A stretch of DNA of 64,000 bases, from assembly GCF_000021485.1 (NCBI RefSeq), contig NC_011761.1:712001-776000 (forward strand), given 5' to 3'. Positions 10,194 to 32,855 of the stretch are shown here, one piece after another; within the stretch, counting starts at the first letter, position 1; each line of letters opens with the position of its first letter. The notes below the pieces were generated by a model. That model was not told the DNA's origin and searched no databases. It was given only the letters and a program-made list of their open reading frames with translations. The position numbers and the translations under genes were made by a program. The stretch comes from Acidithiobacillus ferrooxidans ATCC 23270 (GTDB lineage: Bacteria; Pseudomonadota; Gammaproteobacteria; Acidithiobacillales; Acidithiobacillaceae).

Positions 10194-10205
10194 GATATCG
10201 TTTCG

Positions 10206-11399
10206 CTAGGCGGAACGGCCGAAGACCAGACTGCAGTTGCTGCCACCAAAGCCGAAGGAATTGCTTAATATATGGGAAACCCTTTGCCGTTGGTTTGACA
10301 TGAGATATTGAATGCCAGTCGTGGTATCTCTCTGGCCGGCTTCCGGACCCGCCGGCATCAGGTCATGTTGGATGGCGATGGCACAGATGACGGCCTCCAG
10401 CGCTCCGGCGGCACCTAAGGTGTGGCCGGTAGCACCTTTGGTAGAGCTGCACGGTGTTGTGGCACCGAAGACTCCGGCTACTGCTTTGGCCTCGGACGAA
10501 TCATTGTTGAGAGTGGCGGTGCCGTGCAGATTGATATAGTCAATACTTGCAGGGCTCAATCCGGCCGAAGACAACGCCTGTTCCATGGCCATGCGCGCTC
10601 CCAGACCGTCGGGGTGAGGCGATGACATGTGATAGGCATCGCTGGATTCACCCACACCCAACAAAAGCACCGCATCGCTGTCGGGACTGCCCGGCATGCG
10701 TTCTAGCAACAGATAGGCGGCGGCCTCGCCGAGGGAAATACCTTTACGATCGTCGCTGAATGGTCGACAGGGGCCGTCGGCCAACAGCCCCAGCGAATGA
10801 AAACCGTAGAGGGTGGTCGCACATAATGAGTCTACGCCGCCGACTACGGCGGCATCAATCAATCCAGCGTCCAGCATACGTTTTGCCGAGGCGAGGACCT
10901 TGGCGCTGGAGGAGCAGGCGGAAGACACCGACATGGCCGGACCTTCGAGGCGCAATTTTCGCCGGATGAAGTCGCTTAGAGAGTATGGGCTGTGGGTGGC
11001 GGCATAGACAAAATCCGCTGGCAGGCATCCGCTAACGGGGTCGAGATGCCGAAACGCCCATTCGGTCTGCAGAATGCCCGCGGTGCTGGTCCCCAGGAAA
11101 ACGCCGATCCGCCTTCGGCCCCATTTGCTGGCGGCAGTATCCACTGCCTCGGCAAATCCGTCCTGGCGCAGGGCTAACTGCGCCAACCTATTGTTACGAC
11201 AGTTAAAGTCTCGCAGCCCCGGTTCCATTTCCTCGTCGTCAACCGCATCCACTTCGCCGACCCAGGTGTTGATGTCGATACCCTGGAAGGCGCACGGCTT
11301 CAGCCCGCTTTGGCGATCAAGCAGTGCAGCAAGGGTTTGGTCCAGACCGCGTCCGATACAGCTTGTCGCGGTGAATCGTGATACGAGCACCGGTGGCAT
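10206..11399 (-). CDS. Beta-ketoacyl-ACP synthase (condensing enzyme) of the pigment cluster
   Basis: A 397-residue FabF-type ketosynthase. The catalytic Cys is in SVSSACSSSAK (about residue 160), followed by the two active-site histidines in NLHGTATLNND and STKGATGHTLGAAGALE. It would carry out decarboxylative condensation with malonyl-ACP. Aryl-polyene clusters often carry several ketosynthases; only this complete one plus the chain-length factor is present in the window. It is the first gene of the leftward operon; no strong ribosome site is seen before the ATG at 11399. Confidence 0.88.
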   Translation of the reverse strand: MPPVLVSRFTATSCIGRGLDQTLAALLDRQSGLKPCAFQGIDINTWVGEVDAVDDEEMEPGLRDFNCRNNRLAQLALRQDGFAEAVDTAASKWGRRRIGVFLGTSTAGILQTEWAFRHLDPVSGCLPADFVYAATHSPYSLSDFIRRKLRLEGPAMSVSSACSSSAKVLASAKRMLDAGLIDAAVVGGVDSLCATTLYGFHSLGLLADGPCRPFSDDRKGISLGEAAAYLLLERMPGSPDSDAVLLLGVGESSDAYHMSSPHPDGLGARMAMEQALSSAGLSPASIDYINLHGTATLNNDSSEAKAVAGVFGATTPCSSTKGATGHTLGAAGALEAVICAIAIQHDLMPAGPEAGQRDTTTGIQYLMSNQRQRVSHILSNSFGFGGSNCSLVFGRSA

Positions 11400-11702
11400 G
11401 TGTCTTATAAATCATAATAATAGATAATATGAGCATTGTGATTGGGCGACCGGTGAATGTCAAACCGAGCTCAGTGGCCGCCTGTAGGGACGGTAGGGAA
11501 GCACGGCGGCGCGGGTGGGTGGGCCGCCTCGCTTGAGGGCGGTATCCACCGATTGTGAACCAAGTAGCAATCTGGGGTAGAATTATAAAAGCGGAACCGG
11601 GCGGGCACCTCGGTCCTCCTGCCGGAGGAGCTGGATCGTATCGCCCGGGGCGTATCGTCACCTGGCGCGCCGTTAAACATAACGCAATGGAGACTATCAG
11701 AT
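11400..11702. other. Divergent promoter region between ketosynthase and ACP genes
   Basis: This 303-bp region separates two divergent pigment genes and contains no plausible gene. The leftward promoter candidate is listed separately. For the rightward ACP gene a TAGAAT at 11578-11583 with TTGTGA at 11553-11558 is possible, but the 19-bp spacer is long. A GC-rich stretch at 11495-11540 has no clear operator symmetry. Confidence 0.4.
11435..11463 (-). promoter_or_regulatory. Candidate sigma-70 promoter for the ketosynthase operon
   Basis: On the minus strand a perfect TTGACA (11463-11458) is followed after 17 bp by CACAAT (11440-11435), a 4-of-6 match to the -10 consensus. It lies about 36 bp before the ATG of the ketosynthase gene at 11399. 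Confidence 0.4.
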
Positions 11703-11969
11703 ATGTACAGCCTTACGCCCCAGGAACTGGAGTTGAGTGCTTTAATAATAGCGGCACTGAATCTCCCCGTGGGTCCGCAGGACATTGACCCTGAAGCGCC
11801 ATTATATGGTGGAGAATTGGGACTTGATTCCATTGATATTCTGGAGATATCCATGGTCATAGGAAAAAACTACGGATTAATGATATCAAGCGACAACGAC
11901 AATAAGGTAGAAATATTTAGTTGTTTGCGCAACCTCTGCACTTATGTGCAGGCGCATAGGTCCAACTAG
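11703..11969 (+). CDS. Acyl carrier protein of the pigment cluster
   Basis: An 88-residue acyl carrier protein. The phosphopantetheine attachment Ser is in LGLDSIDILEISM, about residue 41, followed by the acidic helix typical of the family. It would carry the hydroxybenzoyl starter and growing polyene between ligase, ketosynthase, reductase and dehydratases. TGGAG about 10 nt upstream supports the ATG at 11703. It stands alone on the plus strand between the two leftward operons. Studied aryl-polyene clusters usually have two ACPs; only one is seen here. Confidence 0.88.
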   Translation: MYSLTPQELELSALIIAALNLPVGPQDIDPEAPLYGGELGLDSIDILEISMVIGKNYGLMISSDNDNKVEIFSCLRNLCTYVQAHRSN

Positions 11970-12042
11970 AAAATCCTTTCCGCGCCCGCCGTAAGCGGGG
12001 AGTATCTGGCGGTTGGTCGGGAGCGCTTTGGGAAGCTAGGGA

Positions 12043-14397
12043 TCAAACGGTCGACTGTTGGGAAAAACTGGCAGAGAATAACAACGCCAGAACAACGCCC
12101 GGCGCGACGGCGGCACCGATGGCCTGCAGTACTGGAACTCCGGAAAAAGCGAGTGGCCCAAATCCCATGATGGTGGTGATGTTGGCGATGACCAGAGAAG
12201 CGAGCGTACGCGGCGCGATCTCCCCGTGGACCTGCCGGGCGCCCTGGTCAAAAAAGAGTGCGTAGTTTGATCCGATGGCGACAATCAGCATCAGCCCGAT
12301 CAGATTCATAATATTTAGTTCGTAGCCGAGCAAGACAAGTCCGGCGGTTACGGTCAGGACGGCCGCAATCAACGGTAGCAGTATCCTGAAGACGCGCACC
12401 GGGGAGCGCAATACGAACAATAACAGCAAGGCAATGAAAGCGACACCGGATAATGACAGCTTAATCCCATTTATCAGATAACTTTTATACAATTGATTCG
12501 ATGTTCCGGACAAGTCGATGAGCATGGCACCCGTGATATGGTGCCGGGCAAGGCTGGCACGCACGCGCCGCGCGTCCACCGTGCCTGAAGCCGGTGCTTT
12601 GAGCGGTAGAATGGCGTCCCATCCGTTGCCGTGGCGGATAAGCATGCTGTTTACCACCATCCCGATACTGGTGCCGCGCAGGTCGGCAAGGGTTAAGGGG
12701 GTGAGCGTGCGCTGCGCCTCGGATTCCTTGATGAACGGCGTGAACAGCGAAGCTTTTACCGGTAGACCAAGCAGGGCTTCACGCAAACGCCTTTCCAGCA
12801 CGTCTTTTGGTGGGATCGCCGCTTGCCGCTCCTGTTGCAATGTGACGCTCGGCAGGTACCGGGCGGGACTCTCATAGCCGGCAATGACGTGATTTTCTAC
12901 CAACCCCTGTAGCGCATTGCCGGTCTTTTCGGCCACAGCCAACGTAGCGTTGACGGTGGGTGCAGAAACGACGACCAGATAACCGCCCTCGGATACACCC
13001 AGGTCAGCACGCATTTGCGTATAGAGTCGTTGTGCTGCCGCCGGAACGGGGCTCAGCGCAGACAGGTCGTAGTTCCAAATCTTGTCGCGATGGCTGACGA
13101 GGACGGCGCTCGCCGCGATCAGTAGCAACACGACGCCAGGCCGCAGGGCGGAAAGGGTTCGTGTCAAGCGAAGCAGATGTTCGCCAATACTGCTTAAATC
13201 CCGTGATTTAAAATTGCCGGGCAGCAGGGTTGGTAATACCAGCCGGGTAACAATTGCCGCAGTGAGAAGCCCGGCAATCGCATAAAGGCCGAGTTGTGCC
13301 AGCCCCGGCAAATTCGAAAAAAGCAGACTGGCAAATCCGATGATCGAGGTGAATACCCCTAATCTGATGGTCGGCCAGTACTTGCGTATCCATTCGTCAC
13401 TTCCTGTTGCAGATTGTCCGGACTGCACAAAAAAATAAATGGAATAATCTACGGCTTCGCCAATTAATGCCGTTCCAAATCCCAGAGTGATATCGTAGAC
13501 AACAGAGAAACCAAGCGCTACTGCGGAAATTCCGACGATTACTCCGGAAAATACGGGTATGAGACCCAGAATAAGCACGATACCGGAGCGGTATACGAGC
13601 AATAGCAGTAAAATTATAAGCGTTATACTGATGGTGGACATCAACTCCGCTGCATGGACGATGGCGTCGCGAGAGGCCACCGAAATCACCCCGACGCCGG
13701 TCATCATCAAGGTAGTGTTCGCGGCTACGGACCCCGCTTCCGACTTCGCAACGGCGAATGCGGTCTGTATGTCGTTGATTGCTGCCTGCTGGGCATTTAT
13801 AGCGGAACCGGAAGCTCGGGTTTGTGCCAATATCAAGGCACTTTTGCCGGAACGCGAGGACCACACTCCGTCGCGGGTCACTGGTCTCACCCCGCTTCCC
13901 ATGGACTGGATCATCTGCACAGTGGCCCCGGTAGGATCACTAGGGAGCAACGACTGAACCATCTCTCCGCCTGGAGTGGCCAACATATCGATGGAATCGG
14001 CAATGGCGTCGTGTAGCCCGGCAACTGTAAAAAGTGTCGGGTTGACGGTGGGGCTCAACAAATAACGATGAGAAAAAATATAATGAAATATTCTGGTATC
14101 ACCATTGTTGCTGCCGTTGTTGATGGACAAAAATGCAGTGTTACCCTGAAGCTTCCGGACCAGCTCATTGGAGAGCTTGGCGCGTATGGTAGCATCACCG
14201 CCATCAATGCGGATCATGATTTGGCGTGATAGAATACCCTGACGTAGTTGTTCGTTCAGGACCGCCTGCTGCGTGGTGGGTGACCGAGGCAGGAATTCCG
14301 AAAGATTTGCTGTGAATTTGGTGGTGCTGATCAATACGCTACCGACAAGCAAAATAGCCAGCCATGTTGCAATGATGAAAACGCGGTTTTTCCTCAC
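12043..14397 (-). CDS. MMPL/RND-family exporter of the pigment cluster
   Basis: A 784-residue membrane protein with the two-fold MMPL layout: an N-terminal transmembrane helix, a large periplasmic domain, about five helices (with GEAVDYSIYFFVQ), a second periplasmic domain, and a final helix bundle (with AIGSNYALFFDQ). Such exporters are constant members of aryl-polyene and xanthomonadin clusters and are thought to move the polyene lipid from the inner membrane toward the outer membrane. It overlaps the LolA-like gene by 4 bp. It is the last gene of the second leftward operon and converges on the ACP gene with a 73-bp gap. Confidence 0.87.
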   Translation of the reverse strand: MRKNRVFIIATWLAILLVGSVLISTTKFTANLSEFLPRSPTTQQAVLNEQLRQGILSRQIMIRIDGGDATIRAKLSNELVRKLQGNTAFLSINNGSNNGDTRIFHYIFSHRYLLSPTVNPTLFTVAGLHDAIADSIDMLATPGGEMVQSLLPSDPTGATVQMIQSMGSGVRPVTRDGVWSSRSGKSALILAQTRASGSAINAQQAAINDIQTAFAVAKSEAGSVAANTTLMMTGVGVISVASRDAIVHAAELMSTISITLIILLLLLVYRSGIVLILGLIPVFSGVIVGISAVALGFSVVYDITLGFGTALIGEAVDYSIYFFVQSGQSATGSDEWIRKYWPTIRLGVFTSIIGFASLLFSNLPGLAQLGLYAIAGLLTAAIVTRLVLPTLLPGNFKSRDLSSIGEHLLRLTRTLSALRPGVVLLLIAASAVLVSHRDKIWNYDLSALSPVPAAAQRLYTQMRADLGVSEGGYLVVVSAPTVNATLAVAEKTGNALQGLVENHVIAGYESPARYLPSVTLQQERQAAIPPKDVLERRLREALLGLPVKASLFTPFIKESEAQRTLTPLTLADLRGTSIGMVVNSMLIRHGNGWDAILPLKAPASGTVDARRVRASLARHHITGAMLIDLSGTSNQLYKSYLINGIKLSLSGVAFIALLLLFVLRSPVRVFRILLPLIAAVLTVTAGLVLLGYELNIMNLIGLMLIVAIGSNYALFFDQGARQVHGEIAPRTLASLVIANITTIMGFGPLAFSGVPVLQAIGAAVAPGVVLALLFSASFSQQSTV

Positions 14398-15110
14398 GGC
14401 GTAGGTGACTTGGTGATGGTGATCAGGGAACGATCGCGATTTGTTTTCAATGTTTCGATGCTGGTTACCGTATTGTTGCTACCGTTGACCTGAATATATT
14501 GAACCAGATCCGCCAACTTTTTTTGTCTGGGCAGCATCGTCAGAGTCCAGTTGCCCTCGCTGCCGCTCAAAGAAAGACGAAAGAATTGCTTCAGCATCTG
14601 CTGGTTCCCGGTCAACGTGCCACGTATGCTATCGATAAATGCCAATAATTCCGGATGATCCTGCAGATGGATATCCTGGTGGTCGATGGTGAGCACGTCA
14701 CCTTGTATGAGCATAACCTCATTTTTTGGTTTGATGGTGTGCATCTCCAAGCCGTCCGGGGCTATGAAACGCAGTCTACCGGATGATTCTATGGGTTTTT
14801 CCAGTATGGTCAGGAATTTTTTCTCGACGAATGTGGCGCGACCGGGTTTGGTATGTGCCAAGGACTGCATCAGATGATCGATATTCCATTCCGATGCCTG
14901 GGCTGCAGCCGCCGTCAGCATCGTACTCATGCCCAGAAGCATCAGTAGGATCACCGCCCCGGAATGGAAGGAGGTCTGGCCAGAAGCTGCCGCGAGTGAG
15001 GGTGTGCCGGGTGACGTCGCCTGGTCCTTGAGAAAGTCCTTTTTCAGGGGCGCCACGAGTATTCCTATCCGGGTATCCAGCAGTTGCCGGAGCACTTTAG
15101 ATATGGCCAT
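14394..15110 (-). CDS. LolA-like periplasmic carrier protein
   Basis: A 238-residue protein whose C-terminal two thirds match the outer-membrane lipoprotein carrier fold (SLAHTKPGRATFVEKKFL, ESSGRLRFIAPDGLEMHT, VLTIDHQD). A hydrophobic stretch AVILLMLLGMSTMLTAAAAQA near residues 52-72 looks like an export signal. It is preceded by about 50 extra residues that are hard to reconcile with a simple signal peptide, so the start may be downstream of 15110 or the protein may be anchored. LolA-like proteins sit next to the MMPL exporter in aryl-polyene clusters and probably ferry the lipid across the periplasm. Confidence 0.75.
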   Translation of the reverse strand: MAISKVLRQLLDTRIGILVAPLKKDFLKDQATSPGTPSLAAASGQTSFHSGAVILLMLLGMSTMLTAAAAQASEWNIDHLMQSLAHTKPGRATFVEKKFLTILEKPIESSGRLRFIAPDGLEMHTIKPKNEVMLIQGDVLTIDHQDIHLQDHPELLAFIDSIRGTLTGNQQMLKQFFRLSLSGSEGNWTLTMLPRQKKLADLVQYIQVNGSNNTVTSIETLKTNRDRSLITITKSPTP

Positions 15111-15127
15111 CAGACTACTCCTTAACC

Positions 15128-16048
15128 TTATTGCCAGAAGTCAAAAAAATTAAACCAGTTATAAGGTGCCATATGACAGTACTTCTCCAACAAGCCGACG
15201 TACTTTTCCATCGTCTGATGCACCACTGCTTCCCGCTCGTCTCGTTCGACATCAGTGAAATCAGCCAATTGTTCAAGAAAAATTTCATATTTCCCCGGTC
15301 CGGTATGCAGCCCGACCATAAAGAAAATCGGTCTGCGCAAGATCACCGCCATCCGGAAGGGCCCGCTGGGCCAAAGGGCGGGCTTGCCCAGAAAAGTAAC
15401 GGACTGCACCTTCTCCTTACCAAAGGAGCGATCACCCAGCAGACCAACCAATGCGCCGTTTTCCAGTTCTTCTTGAACGCGGATCATCGAATCCATACGG
15501 CCAGGGGGTATGATATTTTGTTTGGCCAGCGGATTGATGGCTGAAAGCATCGCATTTAAACGCTGGGCGTTTTGCTCATACATCACCATGACCACGCGGG
15601 GACCAGGGTGCCGCTGGCCAACGCCCCTCAGCACCTCAAAACTGCCGAGATGTGCCCCTAGAAGCAATACCCCTTGTCCGGCGGCAACGGCCGTCTCGAT
15701 GGCCTCTGGCTGGTGTACATGTATGTCAAAGAGATCGAAACGATTGTTGAGCAAATCAATGCGGTCATGGATCGTTGCGGAGAATGTTAGAAAATGGTGA
15801 TATATTTGCCAGATATGTGCGGGTTGGCCGAGCACCCGCGTGAGGTACGCTCGAGATGATCGTCTGGCCGTTGGCGCAAACAAGAGAAAGTATCCGGCGA
15901 TCAGATGCAATATGAGGCGGGCCTGGCGGCGGCCCAGCTTCATGGAAATCCAGGTGATTACCCGTAACATGGCCATGCTTCCGCGCTCCGGATGCTGTGC
16001 CCAGGACGGCTGGTCAGGGGGTATGGACGCCTGGTCTGTGGGGAGCAT
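15128..16048 (-). CDS. LpxL/HtrB-like acyltransferase of the pigment cluster
   Basis: A 306-residue member of the Kdo-dependent lipid A acyltransferase superfamily. LLLGAHLGSFEVLRG contains the conserved His and Glu (H-x4-D/E) of the active site, and LLGDRSFGKEK follows. It should attach an acyl or aryl-polyene chain to a lipid acceptor at the inner membrane. Together with the PlsC-type enzyme it gives the cluster two acyltransferases, matching aryl-polyene loci. Its ATG overlaps the TGA of the preceding dehydratase gene. Confidence 0.8.
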   Translation of the reverse strand: MLPTDQASIPPDQPSWAQHPERGSMAMLRVITWISMKLGRRQARLILHLIAGYFLLFAPTARRSSRAYLTRVLGQPAHIWQIYHHFLTFSATIHDRIDLLNNRFDLFDIHVHQPEAIETAVAAGQGVLLLGAHLGSFEVLRGVGQRHPGPRVVMVMYEQNAQRLNAMLSAINPLAKQNIIPPGRMDSMIRVQEELENGALVGLLGDRSFGKEKVQSVTFLGKPALWPSGPFRMAVILRRPIFFMVGLHTGPGKYEIFLEQLADFTDVERDEREAVVHQTMEKYVGLLEKYCHMAPYNWFNFFDFWQ

Positions 16049-16368
16049 CAGCAGGTTGAGGTCTTTGCGGCAGGAGATAGATCACCAGCGGCTATCCTGC
16101 GGTTGTTCGCGTGGATCTCAAAGGCGATGGACGCATCTGCTCTCGTATCGAAACATAGTGTCAGCACCTCCCCAGGGGATGCAGGGCTGTAAAATTTGGC
16201 CATGGTAATATGGCCTCCCGTCGTCATCGCTTGCCCAGTCGTAGACTCCACCGTATGAATGACCTCGTCAATAAGCATTACGCCGGGAACGATGGGATGC
16301 CCCGGGAAATGACCAGCGAAGACCGGATGTTGCGCCGGGATGCTGAATAAAACTTCATGGTGTGCCAG
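16048..16368 (-). CDS. FabZ-like 3-hydroxyacyl-ACP dehydratase (ApeI-like), apparent non-AUG start
   Basis: About 106 residues of hotdog dehydratase. VFAGHFPGHPIVPGVMLIDE holds the active-site His and the conserved PGV of FabZ-type enzymes. Nothing upstream of the domain is homologous, and the frame has no ATG, GTG or TTG near the expected N-terminus. The nearest ATG in frame, at 16533, lies deep inside the ligase gene. A GAGGAG ribosome site lies 7 nt before a CTG at 16368-16366, which is the start given here; an ATC one codon earlier is the other choice. The gene overlaps the ligase 3' end by 14 bp. It pairs functionally with the ApeP-like protein. Confidence 0.7.
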   Translation of the reverse strand: MAHHEVLFSIPAQHPVFAGHFPGHPIVPGVMLIDEVIHTVESTTGQAMTTGGHITMAKFYSPASPGEVLTLCFDTRADASIAFEIHANNRRIAAGDLSPAAKTSTC

Positions 16369-17716
16369 GATTGTTCTCCTCTTTATGATGGAGCGTCGTG
16401 ACCAGCAACTGAAACGCTTCGCGCGGTAATTTTCCGGTATTATTACGCGGTAGCGCATCCACAATCTGTAGCGGCCGGGGAAGAAATGCCGGATCGATGC
16501 GCTCACGCAGTTTGGCGTAAATCGAATGAGCATCTACTCCCGGTGCCACAACAAATGCAATCAAGCGCTTTACGCTGCCCGCAGCACCGTCGTCGGGCAT
16601 AAAAAATGCGCCATCTTGTACCTCTGGGATGGAATTAAGCTGATGGTTTAGATAAGCCAGGGAGCTGCGTTTGCCCGCTATATTGACAAGGTCGGCGGTT
16701 CGACCATGAAGAAGAAAACGCTCATCGTTAATAATCTCCAGTCTGTCGCTGAGTTCCGTTGCTTGTTCCACATGCCCACCGCTTGCCCACACGCGTCCAA
16801 GTTGCGACGTCAAGCGGAGTTCTGGCAATAACGACCATTCATCGGTTTCTGCACTGCGCCGGGTGGCAATCTGGCCCGTTTCAGTGGATCCGTAGATTTC
16901 TTGCAGAGGGGCATCGAAGCGGGTTTCCGCCTCTCGTGCCAGGTCTTGGGTCAATGGAGCCGTAGCGGAAATCAGCAAATCGGCAGGTGGCAAAGGGGAA
17001 CTCATACCCAACAAAGCGCGGAGGTGAATTGGCGTGCTCACCAGCAATCGTGGGCGTGGCAGCAATGAAAGTTCAGCGCAAATATCCGCAGGGTAAAAAT
17101 ATTGAGGCGCACTGAGGGCACCTCCGCATTGTAAAACGATCAGTATGGTTGATTCGAAGCCGTACATATGTTGTGGTGGAACGGTACCAAGCACTGCATG
17201 TGTACGGCCATCAAGTAAGCCCAGACGCTGGGCTTCGGCGCGGACGCTTCCTACCAGTGCGCCCCAGGTTTTCAGATGAGGAACAGGGCTTCCGGTGGAT
17301 CCGGAAGTGAATACATAACTTACCGGTAGGGTTTCCGGAAGGAGGGGGATCGGCAGATTGTGATTTGCCGCCGATACGGGGAAGCCTTCAGGTAAGGAAA
17401 GTTGAGGTAGATCTATATCGTTATCACCATCGCTGAGGCAAAACACATCCGGAGCGAAGCGGACCATCTGACGGATGGTTTCGTGTGTATATGTAGACGG
17501 CAACAGACTTATTTTGTTGGCAGTCATGGCCGCAGCAAGACCTACCATGAAGCGGTAACGGTCACGGCAAACGTTAAGAACGTGTTTCCCCGGAAGAAGT
17601 ATGGCACGAAGCTGTGCTACGTCCGCTAAGAATTGATGTACGGTAATCGCTTCGCCATGACGAAATGCTACGATATCGCTCGCGGATTGATGGGTCATCA
17701 AGGGGAGGCGGTTCAT
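16355..17716 (-). CDS. AMP-dependent acyl/aryl ligase of the pigment cluster (ApeH-like)
   Basis: A 453-residue adenylate-forming enzyme. YVFTSGSTGSPVPHLKTWGAL is the ATP-binding A3 motif (about residue 135), EIYGSTETGQIATR the A5 motif (about residue 275), and a C-terminal lid domain ends with PRNNTGKLPREAF (A10, with catalytic Lys). It should activate hydroxybenzoate as adenylate and load it onto the ACP, linking the chorismatase product to polyene synthesis. It is second in the leftward unit, 27 bp after the COG4648-type gene. Confidence 0.83.
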   Translation of the reverse strand: MNRLPLMTHQSASDIVAFRHGEAITVHQFLADVAQLRAILLPGKHVLNVCRDRYRFMVGLAAAMTANKISLLPSTYTHETIRQMVRFAPDVFCLSDGDNDIDLPQLSLPEGFPVSAANHNLPIPLLPETLPVSYVFTSGSTGSPVPHLKTWGALVGSVRAEAQRLGLLDGRTHAVLGTVPPQHMYGFESTILIVLQCGGALSAPQYFYPADICAELSLLPRPRLLVSTPIHLRALLGMSSPLPPADLLISATAPLTQDLAREAETRFDAPLQEIYGSTETGQIATRRSAETDEWSLLPELRLTSQLGRVWASGGHVEQATELSDRLEIINDERFLLHGRTADLVNIAGKRSSLAYLNHQLNSIPEVQDGAFFMPDDGAAGSVKRLIAFVVAPGVDAHSIYAKLRERIDPAFLPRPLQIVDALPRNNTGKLPREAFQLLVTTLHHKEENNPGTP

Positions 17717-19092: not shown

Positions 19093-20637
19093 TCATTCCT
19101 TCTGGACCGCCAACACATGGCGTTTCAAATCCGCAAGAAGCGCCTGGTCATTGATCACCCGCGGCACCTTGTTCTGACCGCCCAGTCTGCCGCGGGTACG
19201 CAGCCAATTCGCAAAGGTCCCAGGGTCGACGAGGATGACCCGCGGGACATCCAGTTGTATATCGTTTCGTCGATGTTCCCGGTAGTCGGCATTCCGTTCC
19301 TTGAGGGCTAGGTCGATATGGGCCGAGAAGCGTCCGGCCAGGGCCTGCCGTGCGTCCGGTGCTGCGGAAGGCACGCCGGATTCGATGATGTAGATATGGC
19401 GGCCCCTGGTGTTTGAACCCGAAGGGAATTCCGCTCCCATGCTGAAATCGGTGACCTGTATTTTCAGATTTTGCGCCGCTTCAGCTACCGCCCCCTCGAT
19501 TTCCTCGCCGATCAGATGTTCGCCAAAGGCGGACATCATGTAGGAGAGGCGCCCGGTGATCAGGAGACGGGGCGGGTGGCGATCGACGAAGCGCACCGTG
19601 TCGCCGATCACATCGGCCCATAGCCCGGCGTTGCTGCTCAGGACGACGGCATAAGGGATTTCGGTTTCGAGATTGCCGAGCCAATGACGGGTAGGGCGCG
19701 GTGCGTTCAGCTCTTCCACGGGAACGAACTCGAAGAATATCCCGTTGTCGGGCAGCAGCCGCAGACCCTCCCCCGGACTGCGGTCAGCGACGGCGATGAA
19801 TCCTTCGCTGGCCGCATAGACCTCCCGCGTCGCGGCGCCCGTGGCGCGGAGATAATCCGCGAAACGGTCCGCATAGGGGGCGAAGGCGACTCCGCCGTGA
19901 ATGAGCAGTTCCAGCTCGGGGAAGGCCGCCCCCTGGCCCCGCCGTAGGGTCAATACCCGTTCGAAGAGCAGAAGGAGCCAACTGGGCGTGCCGCTCAGCA
20001 CCCGGATGGGCTCGTGGATCGCGGTTTCCGCGATGCGTTCGAGCTTTTCATCCCAATCGGCGAGGAGGGCGAGTTGGGTCCCCGGCAGGGTATAGGGCCT
20101 GGCCCAAAAGGGGATGGTCTTGGCCGCAATGCCGCTCAGGTCGCCGCTATGGACGCCCTTCGCCAGACGGATGAGGGCGGTGCTGCCGCCCAGGATGAGG
20201 GTCTTGCCCGCCAGGGGCTGCCCGTGGGGGTGGCTGGTCAGATGCCAGACGAGAATATCCAGGGCGGCGCGACGGTTGGCGCGCACCATCGCGCGGCTGA
20301 CGGGGATGGCCTTGGTTGCTCCCGTCGTCGTTCCGGAACTGAGGGCAAAAAAGGGGATGCGACCGGGCCAGGTGACGTTCGTCAGCAGCGGGAAGGGTAG
20401 GCGCCAGTACTCCGCCAGGAAATCTTCATAGCGGCGCAGGGGCACGCGCCTTTGGTAGTCAGTGACGTTGTTGATTTTTTCAAAGTGGTGGTCGCGGCCG
20501 AAACGGGTCAGTCGTGCCTGAGCGACGAGTCGCCGTAGTTCCCGTGCTTGCGCGGCGGCCGGATCGAGCCGTTCCAGGTGACGCCGGCGCCTTTCCGCGT
20601 AGAGGCGTAAGAGGGGCGTTCCATTCACGGGTCTCAT
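19093..20637 (-). CDS. GH3-family acyl-acid amido synthetase
   Basis: A 514-residue member of the GH3 auxin-responsive-promoter superfamily, an adenylate-forming group that joins a carboxylic acid to an amine. The ATP-binding FALSSGTTTGATKAIPVS is near residue 105, the second motif REVYAASEGFIA near residue 290, and the C-terminal LSYMMSAFGEHLIGEEIE follows. Plant enzymes conjugate hormones to amino acids; bacterial substrates are mostly unknown. The start at 20637 overlaps the stop of the amidase gene by 4 bp, so the two are co-translated. A longer frame upstream is shadow sequence. Confidence 0.82.
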   Translation of the reverse strand: MRPVNGTPLLRLYAERRRRHLERLDPAAAQARELRRLVAQARLTRFGRDHHFEKINNVTDYQRRVPLRRYEDFLAEYWRLPFPLLTNVTWPGRIPFFALSSGTTTGATKAIPVSRAMVRANRRAALDILVWHLTSHPHGQPLAGKTLILGGSTALIRLAKGVHSGDLSGIAAKTIPFWARPYTLPGTQLALLADWDEKLERIAETAIHEPIRVLSGTPSWLLLLFERVLTLRRGQGAAFPELELLIHGGVAFAPYADRFADYLRATGAATREVYAASEGFIAVADRSPGEGLRLLPDNGIFFEFVPVEELNAPRPTRHWLGNLETEIPYAVVLSSNAGLWADVIGDTVRFVDRHPPRLLITGRLSYMMSAFGEHLIGEEIEGAVAEAAQNLKIQVTDFSMGAEFPSGSNTRGRHIYIIESGVPSAAPDARQALAGRFSAHIDLALKERNADYREHRRNDIQLDVPRVILVDPGTFANWLRTRGRLGGQNKVPRVINDQALLADLKRHVLAVQKE

Positions 20638-22913
20638 GGGGCAGGCTCCAGGTCCATGGACAGGGGGAACTCCGCCGCGATGCTTTCCGCACGGAGGGGC
20701 ATGCGAATATAACTCCCTTGGCGCCAAAGGCCGATCTGATCCGCGAAATTGGCGCTGCCGAGCCAGCCGTCCTGTCCTCCGAAAAGGACGAAATAGTTTT
20801 CGTCGAGGTCGGACAGGTCCGAGATATGCCGTGCCTGGGAGCCGTAAACGGCATCATGGGGGGCGGCAACCAGGCCGTGAGCGGTTTTCATGGGGGTTTC
20901 CCGGGAACCGCCCACGGGGAATCGGGCGACCCGGAAAGCCTTGCCCAGGACAGGAAGCCTTCCCAGCCAATGGGCCGCATCCAGGCGGTGCATATCACCC
21001 CAGACCGCATAACGCCCCGCCCGTCTTGCCGTTTTACGCAACACATGACGGAGAAGTCTTGCCCGCCGCGTCGGCGGCAACGCCTCCAGGTCAGGGATCA
21101 GGTATTTCGTGAGGAAGCCCCACTGACCGAGCAGGGCGCTTGCCTGCCTCCGTCCGTCGGTGTATAGGGCAGGGACGAGATAATACAGCAGGATCTCGAA
21201 GGTGGCCGCGGCAGTGGAATCAGGCCGGTAGTCACCGTCCCAGGTGTCGAGGCGTCCGGCGATCCACTCCGTCTGCCCTGCTTTCCGGATGAGGCGCGCG
21301 AGCTCCCTTGCCAGACGCTGCGCTGCGGGCGAGCGTGTGTCCGTCTGCAGTCGCGTCAGGTCTTGCCGGGAGAATTTCTCTTGCCCGCTGAGGATGTTCC
21401 TCAAGCGGGTGATCCGGTCGCTGTCGGTGAAAAACAGCCCGATCAGGATATCGCTTTCCACTGGGCGATTATTGGCCGAGGCCAGATAGCCTTCGCTTGG
21501 GTTGAGGGCATAGGGGAGCTGGGGCGTCCGGATGATCCCCGTCCAGTGGGTACGGGGATCGGCGGGATCCCGCAGCAGGTCGGGATAGCTCGTCTCCTCC
21601 CGCGCCGGGATGGCCGTAGCGAGAATCTGGAGGATGTTTCCCCGGCTATCGGCGCAGAGCAGATTTTGCCCGGGTACGCCGAATTCGGTGAAACTCGCGC
21701 GAAACTCCCCGCAATGGCGGGCGCGGGCCGCCGCTAAAAGGGCGGTGACTTCATCGCTGGGATGATGTCCTACCCAGGAGAGGGCCAGATCCTTCCCGCT
21801 GCCCCGGGGCAGCAACCGCGCATCGCTGAGGATGGGTCCGAAGGGGGTATAACGGCGGACACGCCGGGCGGGAAAGCAAAAACGGCGGCGGATAAGGAAA
21901 GGTTCGCTGCGGATGCTGGCGGGATCGATCCCGCCGACGCCAAAGAGATCGCTCGCCAGGGCGCGCAGGTTGGTTCCGCCCCAGGCGATAAAGGGGTTGC
22001 GTCCCAGGGCGAAGACCGGGACCCCGACGGGCATGAGCCCCACCACGTGATAGGAGGGGGATTGCGCGCCCAGCAAGAGCCAGGCGTTGGGGAGGGAAAC
22101 CCCCAGGTGCGGGTCGCTGGCGATGAGCGCCCCGCCGCTGGTGCTTTTCCACGGCGACAAGACCACGGAATTGCTCCCGGAACGACCGAGGCCCGAGAAA
22201 AGGCTGGATAGGACACGCTCATCATCCGAGGCGCGAAAGCTGGTCGCGGAATCCACACCCGCCTCCCGCGCCCGCGCCCATATGCGGGGCCAGTCCGGCC
22301 TTCCCTCCTCGCGCAGGAGGGCGAAATAGACGAGCCAATTGACATCGGTCCCCATGAGACGGCTGATGGTGAGCACATCCGCCACTGTCCAGGGTTCACG
22401 CCGCAACCCCGACAGGGCGAATTCCGGCGGAGGAGGCCCGGCCTTTTCCTGGTAATGGTTTAGTCCCGCAACGAAGGCGCCGAGCCAGGCATGGGTGTCC
22501 GCTGGCATCTGCTCCATGATCCCATCCACCGCACGACCAAAATCGAGGATCCGCAACAGTTCATCGATCCCGGTCGCCGGCGGGCCGAAGATCTCCGCCA
22601 AACGTCCCAGGGCGGCGTGCTTGAGCAGGGCGAGTTGGCCCTCGCGCAGGTGGGCGTGGACAAGCCCCAGTACAAAGGCCAGATCGTGGTCGCTTCGGGC
22701 CTGGATATAGGGCACCTGATAGGGATTCCAGCGGATCCGTACTGGGGCTTCGCAGGGGAGACCCTTGCGGGGAAAGGTCGCCAGCCGGGTCTCCAGAGAC
22801 ACCGGCGGTGGAAAGAGGGCAGCGAATCCTGGTAACTGACCGATTATCCGCAAGAGGAGGGATGCGCGACTGCGGGTGCCGCTTCCATCCTGTCTGGGTC
22901 TGCTATCGGCCAT
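20634..22913 (-). CDS. Penicillin-acylase family N-terminal-nucleophile amidase
   Basis: A 759-residue protein of the penicillin/AHL acylase family, which hydrolyses amide bonds of N-acyl compounds. The family is made as a precursor that cuts itself to expose a Ser. Ser247 in GRSGSNSVVLSP is the predicted nucleophile, followed by ALIASDPHLG. Family members are usually periplasmic, but no clear signal peptide is seen, so a cytoplasmic location is possible. ATG 22913 is chosen because AAGGA lies 7-8 nt upstream; ATG 22934 is possible. It is translationally coupled to a GH3-type synthetase, an enzyme of opposite chemistry. Confidence 0.83.
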   Translation of the reverse strand: MADSRPRQDGSGTRSRASLLLRIIGQLPGFAALFPPPVSLETRLATFPRKGLPCEAPVRIRWNPYQVPYIQARSDHDLAFVLGLVHAHLREGQLALLKHAALGRLAEIFGPPATGIDELLRILDFGRAVDGIMEQMPADTHAWLGAFVAGLNHYQEKAGPPPPEFALSGLRREPWTVADVLTISRLMGTDVNWLVYFALLREEGRPDWPRIWARAREAGVDSATSFRASDDERVLSSLFSGLGRSGSNSVVLSPWKSTSGGALIASDPHLGVSLPNAWLLLGAQSPSYHVVGLMPVGVPVFALGRNPFIAWGGTNLRALASDLFGVGGIDPASIRSEPFLIRRRFCFPARRVRRYTPFGPILSDARLLPRGSGKDLALSWVGHHPSDEVTALLAAARARHCGEFRASFTEFGVPGQNLLCADSRGNILQILATAIPAREETSYPDLLRDPADPRTHWTGIIRTPQLPYALNPSEGYLASANNRPVESDILIGLFFTDSDRITRLRNILSGQEKFSRQDLTRLQTDTRSPAAQRLARELARLIRKAGQTEWIAGRLDTWDGDYRPDSTAAATFEILLYYLVPALYTDGRRQASALLGQWGFLTKYLIPDLEALPPTRRARLLRHVLRKTARRAGRYAVWGDMHRLDAAHWLGRLPVLGKAFRVARFPVGGSRETPMKTAHGLVAAPHDAVYGSQARHISDLSDLDENYFVLFGGQDGWLGSANFADQIGLWRQGSYIRMPLRAESIAAEFPLSMDLEPAP

Positions 22914-23208: not shown

Positions 23209-24258
23209 CTACGGCCGCGGATCCCGCGGCAAGGCGGCGGCAGCCAGCACGGCACGGCGCACCAAGGTTGCCAGCAAGGGTAGTTTGTAGGCATTCTGCG
23301 CCAAGGGTGTTGCCCCCGCCAGCGCCGCTTCTCCCGCCGCCTCCGCCGTTTCCCCGTGGATGATCGCCCCCGTCAGCAGGGCTTCTGCCTGTCTCGCCCG
23401 CCAGGGCGCCGGCGCCGCTGCACCGAGCACGATACTCGCCTCCCGGCAAAGGCCGGCCGCGTCGAGATCCACGACCACCGCCACGGCCGCAAGGGGCCAA
23501 TCGAAGGCTTCCCGTTCAGCAACCTGGAAATAAATGGAGCGATTGGTCTGCATCTGGGGCGGCAGCCATACCGCCGTCAGGATCTCCCCGGGCGCAAGAA
23601 TGTTTTCCCGGTGCATGTCCGCTTCGGGCAAAACGAAAAAATCCTCCAGCGAAACCTGCCGCCGCTGTCCTTGCGGGTGAAGAAGTTCCACCTGCGCGTG
23701 ATAAGCCAGGAGCGCGGTGGCCGGGGTCGAGGGATGGACGATGGCGCAGCCGTGGTTGGCAAAAACGGCATGGTAGCGATTGTCGCCCGTAAAGGCGAAG
23801 CAGTGTCCACCGCCCTTGCGCAGGCAGTGATGGGCGGCGGAGCGCAAGTACCAGCAGCGCGGCCGTTGCAGCAGATTCCCGCCCAGGGTGGCGCGGTTGC
23901 GGATTTGCGGGCTGGCCGCCATGGCGGCCGCTTGTGCCAACGCGGCATGGCTCTGGCGGAGACCCGGGTGAGCGGCGATCTGGGCCAGGGTAGTCAGCGC
24001 CCCGATGCGCAGACCGCCGTCGCTCCCCCGGGAGATGCCCTGCAGTTCCGCCAATCGGCTGATGTCCACCAGACGCAGGGGATTGACCAGGCCTTCCTTC
24101 ATGAGGTCCAGCATGTCCACCCCGCCGGCTTTCACCAGGATGGCCTGTTGTGCGATCGGTGTATTTTGCAGTGTGAGCATCGCCTCGGCCATGGTCTGGG
24201 TGACCAGGGCTGCGGCTTCCCCCGGCGACCGAGCCTGTTGCCACTGGAAGGCTTCCAT
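23209..24258 (-). CDS. Molybdenum hydroxylase FAD subunit (XdhB/CoxM-like)
   Basis: A 349-residue FAD-binding subunit of the xanthine dehydrogenase family. Motifs are AGGVDMLDLMKEGL and, for FAD binding, RNRATLGGNLLQRPRCWY, followed by the CO-dehydrogenase flavoprotein C-terminal domain. It passes electrons from the iron-sulfur subunit to an acceptor. The Cys-rich stretch RPRCWYLRSAAHHCLRKGGGHC resembles the [4Fe-4S]-binding insertion of the PaoB/YagS-type subunits. It overlaps the large subunit by 1 bp. Confidence 0.85.
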   Translation of the reverse strand: MEAFQWQQARSPGEAAALVTQTMAEAMLTLQNTPIAQQAILVKAGGVDMLDLMKEGLVNPLRLVDISRLAELQGISRGSDGGLRIGALTTLAQIAAHPGLRQSHAALAQAAAMAASPQIRNRATLGGNLLQRPRCWYLRSAAHHCLRKGGGHCFAFTGDNRYHAVFANHGCAIVHPSTPATALLAYHAQVELLHPQGQRRQVSLEDFFVLPEADMHRENILAPGEILTAVWLPPQMQTNRSIYFQVAEREAFDWPLAAVAVVVDLDAAGLCREASIVLGAAAPAPWRARQAEALLTGAIIHGETAEAAGEAALAGATPLAQNAYKLPLLATLVRRAVLAAAALPRDPRP

Positions 24259-26606
24259 CAGCGCGGCCCCCCGCCTGCGGCTCCGAGGGCATGGAGTACC
24301 TTTGCGGGCGTCATGGGCAAGGAGCGCATGCGCACGCCGACGGCGTTGTAGACGGCGTTGGCGATGGCGGCGGCGGTGGCGATGTTGGCCGGTTCGGCAA
24401 TGCCGTAGGCATCGGTGGCGCTAAATCCCTGGTAATTTTCCAGCAGTATCACCTCGATCTGCGGGGTGTCCCACGCCCCGGTCAATTTGTAATCGACCAG
24501 ATTGGCGTTGAGCATCCAGCCAGTGTGGATATCCAGGATCCGTTCCTCCAGCAGCGCATAAGAAAGGCCCATGAGTACGCCTCCTTGCACCTGGCTTTCA
24601 ATCTGCAAGGGGTTGATGGGACGGCCGCAGTCCTGAACGGCCACCACTCGTTCCACGCGGATGACGCCCGTCTCCGTATCGACGGCCACTTCGGCGAACT
24701 GGACTCCACCCAAGTCGTTCAGTGCCATGGCCGCATCGCCCGAGCGGCTGCGGAAACCGGCATAGTCATCGCTCCGCCCGGCAAAGGCGCTGATGCGGTC
24801 GGTACGCAGGGCGGCGGCAGCCTCCTGCCAGGAGATGCGCCGCTGCGGCGCATCGCGCAAATGGATCCAGCCGTCTTGCACGGTCAATCGTTGCGGATCC
24901 ACCTGCCAAGCCGAGGCGACGGAGCGGAAAAGGGCCTCTTTGATCCGCCAGGCGGCGGTGCGGGCAGGGGGAGTGATGGAGGCGGTGGTACGGCTGCCGT
25001 AGGAAGGTGGTCCCGAGGGAAATTCGGTATCCCCGATGCGCACGTGGATATCTTCCGGCCGCAGACCCAGCTCCTCGGCCACCACCTGGGCCAGGACCGT
25101 ACCGACTCCGGTGCCGATGTCCTGCACGCTGGAAAGCACTTCGACCCGGCCATCCCGCCACAGGCGTAGCTCGCAGGCGGCATTGGTCTGGACATTGGCG
25201 GACCACAGGGATTGCGCCACGCCCCTACCGCGCTTGACCGGCCCCTGATCAGCCCCCGGCGGCTTGCGCTGCGTCCAGCCGATTCTTTCGGCGCCCATGC
25301 GGCGTTCCTCCCGGCGAACGGGGCTGGGGTCGATGACATCGCGGAGGGCAAGGGGGTCCATGGCGAGTTTTTCCGCCAGTTCATCGATGCCCTGTTCCAG
25401 GGCGAAGGCGCCCTGGGTGTTGCCGGGGCCGCGCATAGCGCAACTAGGGCCGGTATGGGTGAAAACGTCGTACTGCAGGGATTCCACATGGGGGCAGCGG
25501 TACAGGGCGGTGATCATATTGCCCACCCCGGCGCCGAAGGCGATGCCGGCATTGCCGTAGGAATGCAGGGAAAGCGCCGTCAGGGTGCCATCCCGCCGGG
25601 CTCCGATGCGCAGATGCTGTTCGCTGGAAGGGCGGTTGCCGGTGTCCATGTGTTCCTCGTCGCGGCGATGAACCAGACGCACTGGCGCCCCCGCCAGCCG
25701 GGAAAGGGCTACCGCCGTGCGCCCGTAAAGTCCAATCTGCGACTTGGAACCGAACCCCCCGCCAACGGCCTCGGCCCGTACGCGGACGCGGGAAAGGGGC
25801 AATTGGAAATGGCGGGCCAACTGGGCGCGCACGCCGGCGGTGAATTGGGTGGACATCCAGACGTCGAGACCGTCCTCGTGCCAGGCCGCGACGATGGCAT
25901 GGGGTTCCAGGCAGCAATGGGTCTGGACCTGGGTATGATAGGTTCCGTCTACCACGATCTCGGCGGCGGCGAAACCGGCATCGATGTCGCCGCGGCTGCC
26001 TTTGCTCTCGGGCCCCCGGATATTGCCAGCGATGGGGAGATCACCGGCTGCCGCGGGCAGGCCGGCCGAGGGGATATTCTCCCGTTCGCCGTTCGGGTAA
26101 ACAAGGGGCGCATCCGCCTGCCTGGCCCCCTCGAGGTCCACGACGAAGGGCAGGGGCTCGTACTCCACTCGGATCAGGCGCAGCGCCGCTTCCGCCAGTG
26201 CCGGCGTGTCCGCCGCCAGGGCGGCGACGGGTTGGCCGACATAGCGGAGCACCATGGAGGCGCCATCCGCCGGGGGCTCCACCACGGTCAGGACCGCATG
26301 GACGCCGGGCAGCGCGGCGGCCGGGGAAAGATCCAGGGAGCGAATGCGGGCATGGGGCAAAGGCGAGCGCAACACCGCCGCATGGAGCATTCCCGGCGGA
26401 TGCACATCCACCGTATATAGGGCCGCGCCCGTGACTTTGTTCCGGGCATCCGAGCGGCGTATATCCTTGCCGATCTGCGTCAGTGCGGCATTGGGCGCCA
26501 ATGGCGGCGGCTCGTCGGCAGGGATCTCCCGTTCCACCGCATCGAGCCCCAGATGGGCGAGGCCGAAGGGGAATTTCTCCCGGCGCCGCGGGAGTTCGTC
26601 ATCCAT
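24258..26606 (-). CDS. Molybdenum hydroxylase large subunit, molybdopterin-binding (PaoC/YagR-like)
   Basis: A 782-residue molybdopterin-binding subunit. Seen are the N-terminal aldehyde oxidase/xanthine dehydrogenase domain (RRSDARNKVTGAALYTVDV, GQPVAALAADT) and the second domain with AVGGGFGSKSQIG and VVAVQDCGRPINPLQIESQ. These enzymes hydroxylate aldehydes or N-heterocycles. ATG 26606 is preceded by GGAAGGAG and lies 2 bp after the small-subunit stop; an upstream extension to 26783 is shadow. Gene order small-large-FAD differs from paoABC, where the FAD subunit is second. The substrate is not predictable. Confidence 0.85.
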   Translation of the reverse strand: MDDELPRRREKFPFGLAHLGLDAVEREIPADEPPPLAPNAALTQIGKDIRRSDARNKVTGAALYTVDVHPPGMLHAAVLRSPLPHARIRSLDLSPAAALPGVHAVLTVVEPPADGASMVLRYVGQPVAALAADTPALAEAALRLIRVEYEPLPFVVDLEGARQADAPLVYPNGERENIPSAGLPAAAGDLPIAGNIRGPESKGSRGDIDAGFAAAEIVVDGTYHTQVQTHCCLEPHAIVAAWHEDGLDVWMSTQFTAGVRAQLARHFQLPLSRVRVRAEAVGGGFGSKSQIGLYGRTAVALSRLAGAPVRLVHRRDEEHMDTGNRPSSEQHLRIGARRDGTLTALSLHSYGNAGIAFGAGVGNMITALYRCPHVESLQYDVFTHTGPSCAMRGPGNTQGAFALEQGIDELAEKLAMDPLALRDVIDPSPVRREERRMGAERIGWTQRKPPGADQGPVKRGRGVAQSLWSANVQTNAACELRLWRDGRVEVLSSVQDIGTGVGTVLAQVVAEELGLRPEDIHVRIGDTEFPSGPPSYGSRTTASITPPARTAAWRIKEALFRSVASAWQVDPQRLTVQDGWIHLRDAPQRRISWQEAAAALRTDRISAFAGRSDDYAGFRSRSGDAAMALNDLGGVQFAEVAVDTETGVIRVERVVAVQDCGRPINPLQIESQVQGGVLMGLSYALLEERILDIHTGWMLNANLVDYKLTGAWDTPQIEVILLENYQGFSATDAYGIAEPANIATAAAIANAVYNAVGVRMRSLPMTPAKVLHALGAAGGGPR

Positions 26607-26608
26607 GC

Positions 26609-27136
26609 TCAATCTCCTTCCGCCTCGGCCAGGGCCAGAATGGCCTGGATCACATGGGGATAGGTTCCGCAGCGGCAGAGATGGCCGCTGATGGCGGTCC
26701 GGATCTCCGCTTCGCCCGGGTGGGGGTATTCTGCCAGCAGGGCGGCGCAACTCATCACCATGCCGGGGGTGCAAAAGCCGCATTGCACGGCATCATGGGC
26801 GACGAAGGCCTCCTGGACGGGATGCAGTCCCTCGTCCGCGGCCAGCCCTTCGATGGTGGTGACCCGCCGTTCCCCCACCTCGATGGCCAGGATGCTGCAG
26901 GAGGCAACCACGAGGTCGTCGAGCCAGACGCTGCAGGCCGAGCAGGCCCCCTGATTACAGGCGATCTTTGTGCCCGTGAGGCCCAGGGGCCCGCGCAGGG
27001 CTTCGGCAAGGGTGGTGCGCGGTTCGACCAGCAGGGCGTGGGCTTCGCCATTGACCCGGAGGACAATGGGCACGGCACCGGGACCAAGGATGGAAGCGGC
27101 GGCCGATTTTTCAATAGCCTGCGGATCTTCTTTCAT
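26609..27136 (-). CDS. Molybdenum hydroxylase [2Fe-2S] subunit
   Basis: A 175-residue iron-sulfur subunit with two domains. The plant-ferredoxin-like cluster has CNQGACSACSVWLDD with a fourth Cys in VVASC, and the helical domain has QCGFCTPGMVMS and HLCRCGTYPHV. It carries electrons from the molybdenum centre to the FAD subunit. The N-terminus shows no twin-arginine signal, unlike periplasmic PaoA, so a cytoplasmic enzyme is more likely. It is the first gene of the three-gene operon. Confidence 0.87.
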   Translation of the reverse strand: MKEDPQAIEKSAAASILGPGAVPIVLRVNGEAHALLVEPRTTLAEALRGPLGLTGTKIACNQGACSACSVWLDDLVVASCSILAIEVGERRVTTIEGLAADEGLHPVQEAFVAHDAVQCGFCTPGMVMSCAALLAEYPHPGEAEIRTAISGHLCRCGTYPHVIQAILALAEAEGD

Positions 27137-29519: not shown

Positions 29520-30905
29520 TCATTTGTCATCCATTTTCTCTTCGACAATATAATGGTTTTCAGGAACGGGAAGCCCCTCGCGATGCAGTGGCAGGGTATA
29601 AATGCTGTCCTGCAAAAACACACGGCGCACCGCAAAAGCAGTCAGGGCCGTCACCATGGCCGGCAGCAGAACATGGTAGTTTCCAGTTAACTCCACCACC
29701 ATCACGGGCGCACTGAGCAAAGCCCCGGTGGTGGCCGCCACCATGCCGGCCATTCCACACAAGGCGAACAAGGCCGCCAGATGCGGAACACCGATAATGG
29801 GTTCCAGGAGCATTCCCAAACAACTGCCGAGTGCGGCCCCCATAAACAGGGAAGGCGAGAAAATTCCCCCGGAACCACCGGTACCGATCGTCAGGCTGGT
29901 CGCTATGGCCTTGAGGGCCAGCAAAAGCAGCAAGAGCAGCGGCCAGTGCATCTGGTGGAGCAATATGTCGGATATCCCAGCATAGCTGCCGCCGATCAAG
30001 TAGTAATGGCCCGTCAACCGACAGGTGACATAGAGCAGGATACCCACCAGCAACATACCGGACATATGGCGCGCATAAGGATTTTGTAGCCGTTTCCGAC
30101 TGTAGGCATCGACACGATCCATGAGCCGAATAAAACCAAGACTCATCAGTGCCATGAGACTGCCCACTACGGCAAAAGTCGGCAACATGAGGCTGCCATT
30201 CCAATGGCTGATATAGGCGTGGGCAAAGAGATGGCCGCTCCCGAACACCTCCTGCGTCACCCAACTGGCAGAGGCTGTTGCCACGAGTGTGGATAGGACG
30301 GTCCAGGGCCGCCAGTCGGGCACGATCACTTCCATGGCCAGAAACCATCCCCCCAGAGGGGCATTGAAGACGGCGGCGATACCGGCACCGACACCACAAC
30401 CCAACAAATGGATGCGCCGGTGATCCGGCACCCGAAAAAGGTACCCTACCAGGGCACCGATAGCGGCACCGAACTGCATGGCCGGGCCCTCGCGGCCAGC
30501 AGAACCGCCCGTGCCAATGGTGATGGCTGTCGCTACCGGTCGCATGATCGCAATCACCGGCCGCATCTGGCCCCGATCGGCATGCACCGCACGTAGTACT
30601 TGGCTGACACCGGCACCCTGTGCTTCCGGTGCGAAGTTGCGCACCAGCACCGTTACCAGCAGGGCACCGATCACTGGCACAAGAATAATCCAAGCGCCCC
30701 ACGGGGAGACGGGAGTATGTTCCCGTGCGTTTTGCACAATACCATAAGTGCCTAAAATCGCTGCATTATGAATGCCGGCAATGAGATAATGGAAAAGTAC
30801 GGCACCCAGCCCAGCCAATAAACCCACTCCGGCACCCAGCAAAATCAAACCAGGACCTTCGTGATGCGGCTCAAAACTGCGATGAAACCATGCGGAAGGT
30901 TTCAA
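29520..30905 (-). CDS. ClC-family chloride channel/antiporter (no CBS domains)
   Basis: A 461-residue ClC protein. The GREGP selectivity segment is present (GTGGSAGREGPAMQFGAA) with its gating Glu, corresponding to E148 of E. coli ClcA. The place of the inner proton Glu (E203 of ClcA, in FIIEEM) appears to be Val (FLAMEVIV), and the GSGIP motif reads GAGVS. This points to a channel-like protein or a different anion. ClC proteins move chloride or fluoride across the inner membrane and help acid resistance. It follows the second ClC gene by 13 bp, in the same orientation. Confidence 0.85.
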   Translation of the reverse strand: MKPSAWFHRSFEPHHEGPGLILLGAGVGLLAGLGAVLFHYLIAGIHNAAILGTYGIVQNAREHTPVSPWGAWIILVPVIGALLVTVLVRNFAPEAQGAGVSQVLRAVHADRGQMRPVIAIMRPVATAITIGTGGSAGREGPAMQFGAAIGALVGYLFRVPDHRRIHLLGCGVGAGIAAVFNAPLGGWFLAMEVIVPDWRPWTVLSTLVATASASWVTQEVFGSGHLFAHAYISHWNGSLMLPTFAVVGSLMALMSLGFIRLMDRVDAYSRKRLQNPYARHMSGMLLVGILLYVTCRLTGHYYLIGGSYAGISDILLHQMHWPLLLLLLLALKAIATSLTIGTGGSGGIFSPSLFMGAALGSCLGMLLEPIIGVPHLAALFALCGMAGMVAATTGALLSAPVMVVELTGNYHVLLPAMVTALTAFAVRRVFLQDSIYTLPLHREGLPVPENHYIVEEKMDDK

Positions 30906-30918
30906 TCAACATGCTCCA

Positions 30919-32766: not shown

Positions 32767-32822
32767 CAGTACGCTCTGGGGATTCGCTTTAAAAAATATG
32801 CTATTCTTGTTGCCAAAGCAAA

Positions 32823-32835
32823 TCGATTTAATCGA
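32823..32835. promoter_or_regulatory. Candidate LysR-type operator
   Basis: TCGATTTAATCGA is a perfect inverted repeat around one central base and fits the T-N11-A rule of LysR-type regulators. It lies in the 89-bp gap between the divergent ClC and LysR genes, 20 bp before the LysR start, the usual place for an autoregulatory site. Confidence 0.5.
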
Positions 32836-32855
32836 AAACAATATCGGAGTACCCG

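Follow-up and report, generated by a model that had tools for sequence, protein, structure and literature searches.

A conserved acylase–GH3 gene pair in Proteobacteria and a proposed two-step system for fatty-acid/amino-acid conjugates

Why would a bacterium encode, in overlapping genes, one enzyme that forms amides and another that cleaves them? This question is raised by a locus of Acidithiobacillus ferrooxidans ATCC 23270 that lies in the stretch of DNA analysed here (the window), which comprises 64,000 nucleotides (bases 712001-776000) of a genome that forms a single contig of 2.98 Mb. The first gene of the pair (20634..22913, minus strand) runs from an ATG at 22913 to a TGA at 20636-20634 and encodes a 759-aa acylase of the penicillin amidase family (Ntn, S45-type), as assigned by PF01804 and an AlphaFold model. 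The second gene (19093..20637, minus strand), assigned by Pfam, NCBIfam and an AlphaFold model, begins with an ATG at 20637, has a stop codon ending at 19093, and encodes a 514-aa GH3-type acyl-acid amido synthetase. Both reading frames are intact and full length. The 4 bp overlap and the coordinates given in a preliminary description of this DNA are correct, and the sequence ATGA at 20634..20637 (minus strand) carries both the acylase stop and the GH3 start.

The Pfam profile Penicil_amidase (PF01804) spans the full length of the acylase (494 bits, E 1e-147), and the top PDB folds for its AlphaFold model (pLDDT 84.8) are D-succinylase and cephalosporin acylase. Features of S45/PF01804 membership are present as predicted from sequence and model, namely the profile match, a serine nucleophile following a spacer, and an active-site Asn and Arg. 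Specifically, Ser247 (22173..22175, minus strand) is the predicted nucleophile: in the alignment it takes the place of residue 1 in the beta chains of solved structures, and it would become the first beta-chain residue after self-cleavage. Asn481 and Arg500 (21414..21473, minus strand) are likewise predicted to be catalytic and, together with Ser247 and His269, are invariant in 22 aligned acylase sequences. In the model, a low-confidence spacer (residues 222-245) sits just ahead of Ser247, as would be expected for self-processing.

The preliminary description had labelled this protein penicillin/AHL-acylase-type. We reject the AHL-acylase label, because the model for PvdQ-type AHL acylases (NF051460) yields a negligible 14.7 bits against a cut-off of 950, and because the nearest solved structures by sequence and fold are D-succinylase and cephalosporin acylases, followed by MacQ, with PvdQ farther away. 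The D-succinylase of Cupriavidus and the glutaryl-7-ACA (cephalosporin) acylases share the catalytic layout of the window acylase but are 18-24% identical to it over the fold matches, and these enzymes are not known to be paired with a GH3 protein. PvdQ and MacQ belong to the same superfamily but are merely 15-16% identical by fold.

Members of the penicillin amidase family usually carry an export signal, although one is not required. The absence of this signal had been remarked upon for the present acylase, and for the window protein this observation appears to hold: no export signal is recognisable in its N-terminus by inspection and alignment with relatives. Residues 17-34 (ASLLLRIIGQLPGFAALF) are moderately hydrophobic at most and are broken by Arg and Gln, and residues 27-30 (22824..22835, minus strand) form a degenerate lipobox, LPGF, where aligned relatives carry LPGC. 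The observation does not extend to the family, as a lipoprotein signal (LPGC, LSAC, TASC or LGGC) is predicted from aligned N-termini in nine of the 26 acylases found in such pairs. A recognisable lipobox is absent from the other 17, and those aligned among them keep all catalytic residues. The signals fall in two separate clades of the acylase tree, for which the root was not inferred, and at least three changes are needed to explain their distribution. Judging from these N-termini, the replacements of LPGC by LPGF and of LSAC by LSAR look like losses of the lipoprotein signal, and the window acylase is likely cytoplasmic, with some start codons being uncertain. Given the nine predicted lipoproteins, the acylase and GH3 need not share a compartment across the family.

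The synthetase carries the N, middle and C domains of its family (Pfam GH3, GH3_M and GH3_C; E 7e-27, 5e-9 and 9e-19, respectively), and the top PDB folds for its AlphaFold model (pLDDT 88.7) are plant GH3 enzymes. Both the domains and the fold of PF03321 are present. Plant acyl-acid amido synthetases such as JAR1, GH3.5 and GH3.12 have the same fold and domain plan, but are 15-19% identical to the window protein over the best fold matches, and the plant hormone context is missing here. The preliminary description stated that no substrate is known for a bacterial GH3 enzyme. This is no longer true, since OlsH of Singulisphaera acidiphila uses ATP and Mg to join free fatty acid to ornithine, yielding N-acyl-ornithine (JBC 2025, PMC12493201), and the window GH3 matches the NCBIfam OlsH model (NF052613) with 569.4 bits. 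The OlsH product was not made in living E. coli, for which its authors suspect a scarcity of free fatty acid (PMC12493201). Alignment against the motifs in PMC12493201 reveals that all three nucleotide-binding motifs of the OlsH/GH3 type are kept in the window protein: motif I reads SSGTTTGATK (20311..20340, minus strand; TSGTTQGATK in OlsH), motif II reads YAASE (19804..19818, minus strand; YPCSE in OlsH), and motif III reads GLWADVIGD (19600..19626, minus strand; GMWSHLIGD in OlsH).

The locus resembles the OlsH/OlsI pathway of S. acidiphila in having a GH3-type enzyme, matching nucleotide motifs and a hydrolase-type partner encoded alongside. However, this partner is an Ntn acylase rather than an alpha/beta-hydrolase, and neither OlsI nor OlsG lies beside the window GH3, which is surrounded by the acylase, xanthine-dehydrogenase-type genes and a small open reading frame. 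Moreover, the match to the OlsH model is under the curated cut-off of 620 bits, which no tested GH3 relative reaches (best 611 bits), and OlsBA-type genes are already present in the genome. For these reasons we reject the assignment of the window GH3 as a plain OlsH. According to the authors of the OlsH study, several of its relatives probably produce different N-acyl amino acids, and where a bacterium already has OlsB or OlsF, its GH3 protein probably works on other amino acids (PMC12493201).

Is the gene pair more than an accident of one genome? Among 57 genomes searched, a full-length GH3 gene occurs in five (G010, G017, G018, G021 and G043) in addition to the window genome, and in every one of these the acylase lies directly upstream. 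A scan of a genome collection with the GH3 alignment yielded 37 loci; when these were pooled with loci from other searches, 26 carried the acylase upstream on the same strand. The two genes are separated by no more than 16 bp in 25 of the 26 (the exception, L052, has a gap of 2.5 kb), and a larger overlap for L055 is an artefact of a stray profile match. The hosts belong to the Alphaproteobacteria and Gammaproteobacteria, along with a Desulfofustis. A further pair resides on a megaplasmid of Indioceanicola profundi, which, like Siccirubricoccus soli, is a host available in culture. One clade of the GH3 tree, with moderate support (91/80), has 29 members, of which 26 are paired with an upstream acylase. 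The unpaired members are L044, L060 and L062, the last of which is truncated where its contig stops. The outer clades, which come from Roseobacter-type bacteria and relatives of Geobacter, are not paired with the acylase.

A sample of 398 genomes drawn evenly from the proteobacterial phylum gives the same picture. The OlsH model exceeds 480 bits in four of these genomes and the acylase profile exceeds 700 bits in five, with the next acylase score falling to 363 bits. Four genomes have both genes, which are adjacent in all four, and the fifth acylase genome (G086) has no GH3 gene beside it. This co-occurrence corresponds to a Fisher p of 5e-9 when kinship is ignored. The preliminary description was to be refuted if the pair were not conserved in related genomes; the pair is conserved, and the two enzymes form a real unit. 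The same order and spacing in 26 loci, together with the co-occurrence in the even sample, establish that the pairing is beyond chance. When the neighbours of these loci were compared, no third gene recurred beside the pair across lineages, and no recurring regulator, receptor, transporter or uptake gene was found.

Third-position GC is 0.74-0.77 for the GH3, acylase and xanthine-dehydrogenase-type genes, versus 0.50-0.65 for flanking genes. This high value and the patchy distribution of the pair indicate that it was probably acquired horizontally. The GH3 protein shares 95% identity with its counterpart in Acidithiobacillus ferruginosus, and dN/dS values for both genes (0.14-0.33 versus A. 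ferruginosus and A. sulfuriphilus) indicate that acylase and GH3 are under purifying selection. Decay is evident in other genomes, as the relative G012 holds degraded pieces of acylase and GH3 side by side, and G007 and G015 keep GH3 fragments. The window genome itself has a remnant of a second GH3 copy at 1.936 Mb (L040, about 9895-10182), which is a C-terminal piece with an in-frame stop.

Several other gene sets in the window are worth recording. The xanthine-dehydrogenase/aldehyde-oxidase-type cluster of three genes (23209-27136, minus strand) has the same high third-position GC as the pair and was probably acquired together with it; in A. ferruginosus, an extra MobA-like gene lies between this cluster and the acylase. 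A relative of the xanthine-dehydrogenase large subunit also occurs 4-6 kb from the pair in two Acetobacteraceae-type loci. Despite the shared high-GC island, we judge this proximity to be chance rather than a functional link, because such genes are common. Another cluster (about 10200-17716, minus strand) encodes a ketosynthase, an MMPL exporter, a LolA-like protein, a lipid-A-type acyltransferase, an ApeI/FabA-like dehydratase and an AMP-ligase, and resembles an aryl-polyene cluster. A link between this cluster and the pair is rejected, as A. sulfuriphilus has the pair in another context. Two homologous tandem genes at 29520-32862 (minus strand) are ClC-type chloride channel-like, as named from their translations.

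What compounds might the pair act on? Old work on T. thiooxidans reportedly found ornithine lipid in Acidithiobacillus. At 651-653 kb, the window genome carries an OlsB-type gene next to an OlsA-type one; the two are homologous to, but score below the cut-offs for, OlsB and OlsA. An OlsB-type N-acyltransferase gene (PF13444) is present in 24 of 25 paired genomes, versus 218 of 398 in the even phylum sample. This association is weak, given how common OlsB is in these lineages and that kinship within the sample is not corrected for. With these genes in place, the pair probably does not serve as a substitute pathway for ornithine lipid, and may act on, or beside, the ornithine-lipid pool.

GH3 genes outside the paired clade have neighbours of other kinds. 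In Geobacter relatives (L068, L069, L070, L071, L072, L074 and L077), a weakly matching alpha/beta-hydrolase with a GVSFG motif lies just upstream of GH3 in five of seven loci, and by analogy this arrangement is a possible OlsH/OlsI-like module outside the planctomycetes. In Ruegeria and Seohaeicola, GH3 is accompanied by a GNAT-like protein, a short-chain dehydrogenase and an AONS/serine-palmitoyltransferase-like enzyme (L063 9974-14763; L065 9998-14659). This Roseobacter-type arrangement could be a sphingoid-type lipid cluster in which GH3 serves as the amide former. With the acylase pair included, all three settings fit a role for bacterial GH3 enzymes in amide-linked lipids.

We tentatively favour, at somewhat less than even confidence, a hypothesis in which the pair is a two-enzyme module that acts on N-acyl amino acids like those in ornithine-type membrane lipids. 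From a position at or near the membrane, the acylase would cleave an N-acyl amide to release free fatty acid, and GH3 would then activate the freed acid with ATP and rejoin it to an amino acid or amine. An amino lipid would thereby be turned over, repaired or given a different head group. The sequences show the genes, their families, their conserved order and coupling, the catalytic residues and the degenerate lipoprotein signal; which way each reaction runs in the cell, that the substrate is a lipid, and that acid passes from the acylase to GH3 are what we infer. The hypothesis draws on the linkage of the genes (26 loci, adjacency in all four GH3 genomes of the even sample, and joint decay in G012), on the complete GH3 fold with its three nucleotide motifs and a relative, OlsH, that uses free fatty acids, and on the four invariant acylase residues. 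A connection to the membrane is suggested by the acylases predicted to be lipoproteins, and a connection to lipids by the frequency of OlsB-type genes and by the OlsI-like or sphingoid-type neighbours of other GH3 genes. Counting against it, the closest solved acylases take short polar acyl groups (succinyl, glutaryl) rather than fatty acyl groups; acid released by a lipoprotein acylase outside the cell would need to cross the membrane to reach a cytoplasmic GH3; and the G086 acylase has no adjacent GH3, just as L044 and L060 lack the acylase. A more specific version, which we consider speculative and rather unlikely, holds that the acylase strips the acyl group from OlsBA-made ornithine lipid and GH3 attaches it to a different amino acid, so that no fatty acid has to be newly made, with the acylase of several lineages having moved from the envelope to the cytoplasm.

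The preliminary description instead envisioned a cycle around a single N-acyl amide, formed by GH3 and broken down by the acylase, through which the pair would control how much of a signal or conjugate is present. The conserved, tightly coupled unit with opposed chemistry agrees with this proposal, as does the apparent lack of export signals on both proteins in the window lineage and several others. We do not prefer it to the turnover or remodelling of N-acyl-amino-acid lipids and consider it unlikely, because the predicted lipoprotein acylases would work on the far side of the cytoplasmic membrane, neither a regulator nor a receptor or transporter recurs nearby, and the acylase is not PvdQ-like. 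Those same lipoprotein signals, found in two separate clades, and the patchy, apparently horizontally acquired distribution would suit a scavenging system, in which an acylase that was once a surface lipoprotein cleaves N-acyl compounds of foreign origin, and the freed acid is stored or detoxified when GH3 links it to an amino acid. This we find quite doubtful, as most paired acylases lack a recognisable lipobox while the aligned ones retain every catalytic residue, and no uptake gene accompanies the pair. It seems improbable that the acylase is an acyltransferase that works through its acyl-enzyme intermediate and replaces OlsI, creating another route to acyloxyacyl amino lipids. OlsI is itself a hydrolase-fold acyltransferase (PMC12493201), and the acylase occupies the place of the GVSFG alpha/beta-hydrolase beside Geobacter-type GH3 genes; yet the window genome already has OlsBA-type genes, and exported forms of the acylase could not use cytoplasmic acyl donors. 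Finally, GH3 might simply be an OlsH that makes lyso-ornithine lipid, with the acylase as an unrelated passenger. Scores of 569 bits, and of up to 611 bits among relatives, speak for this explanation, which we regard as very improbable given that all tested GH3 proteins fall below the curated cut-off, that OlsI and OlsG are absent from the neighbourhood while OlsBA-type genes are present, and that linkage to the acylase is conserved.

The literature searched yielded no description of a bacterial GH3 together with a penicillin acylase, and no mention by name of an ornithine-lipid amidase. No amidase that acts on ornithine-type lipids is known to have been described, and an enzyme dedicated to this task would be new, if true. 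OlsH, reported in 2025, is the one characterised lipid-forming GH3 of bacteria, and a conserved acylase partner offers a first handle on the proteobacterial branch, because a partner amide hydrolase could either supply the free-acid substrate of GH3 or remove its product. The presence of this pair in many unrelated proteobacteria suggests that fatty-acid/amino-acid conjugates, probably membrane lipids, are handled by a two-step system that has not been described before.
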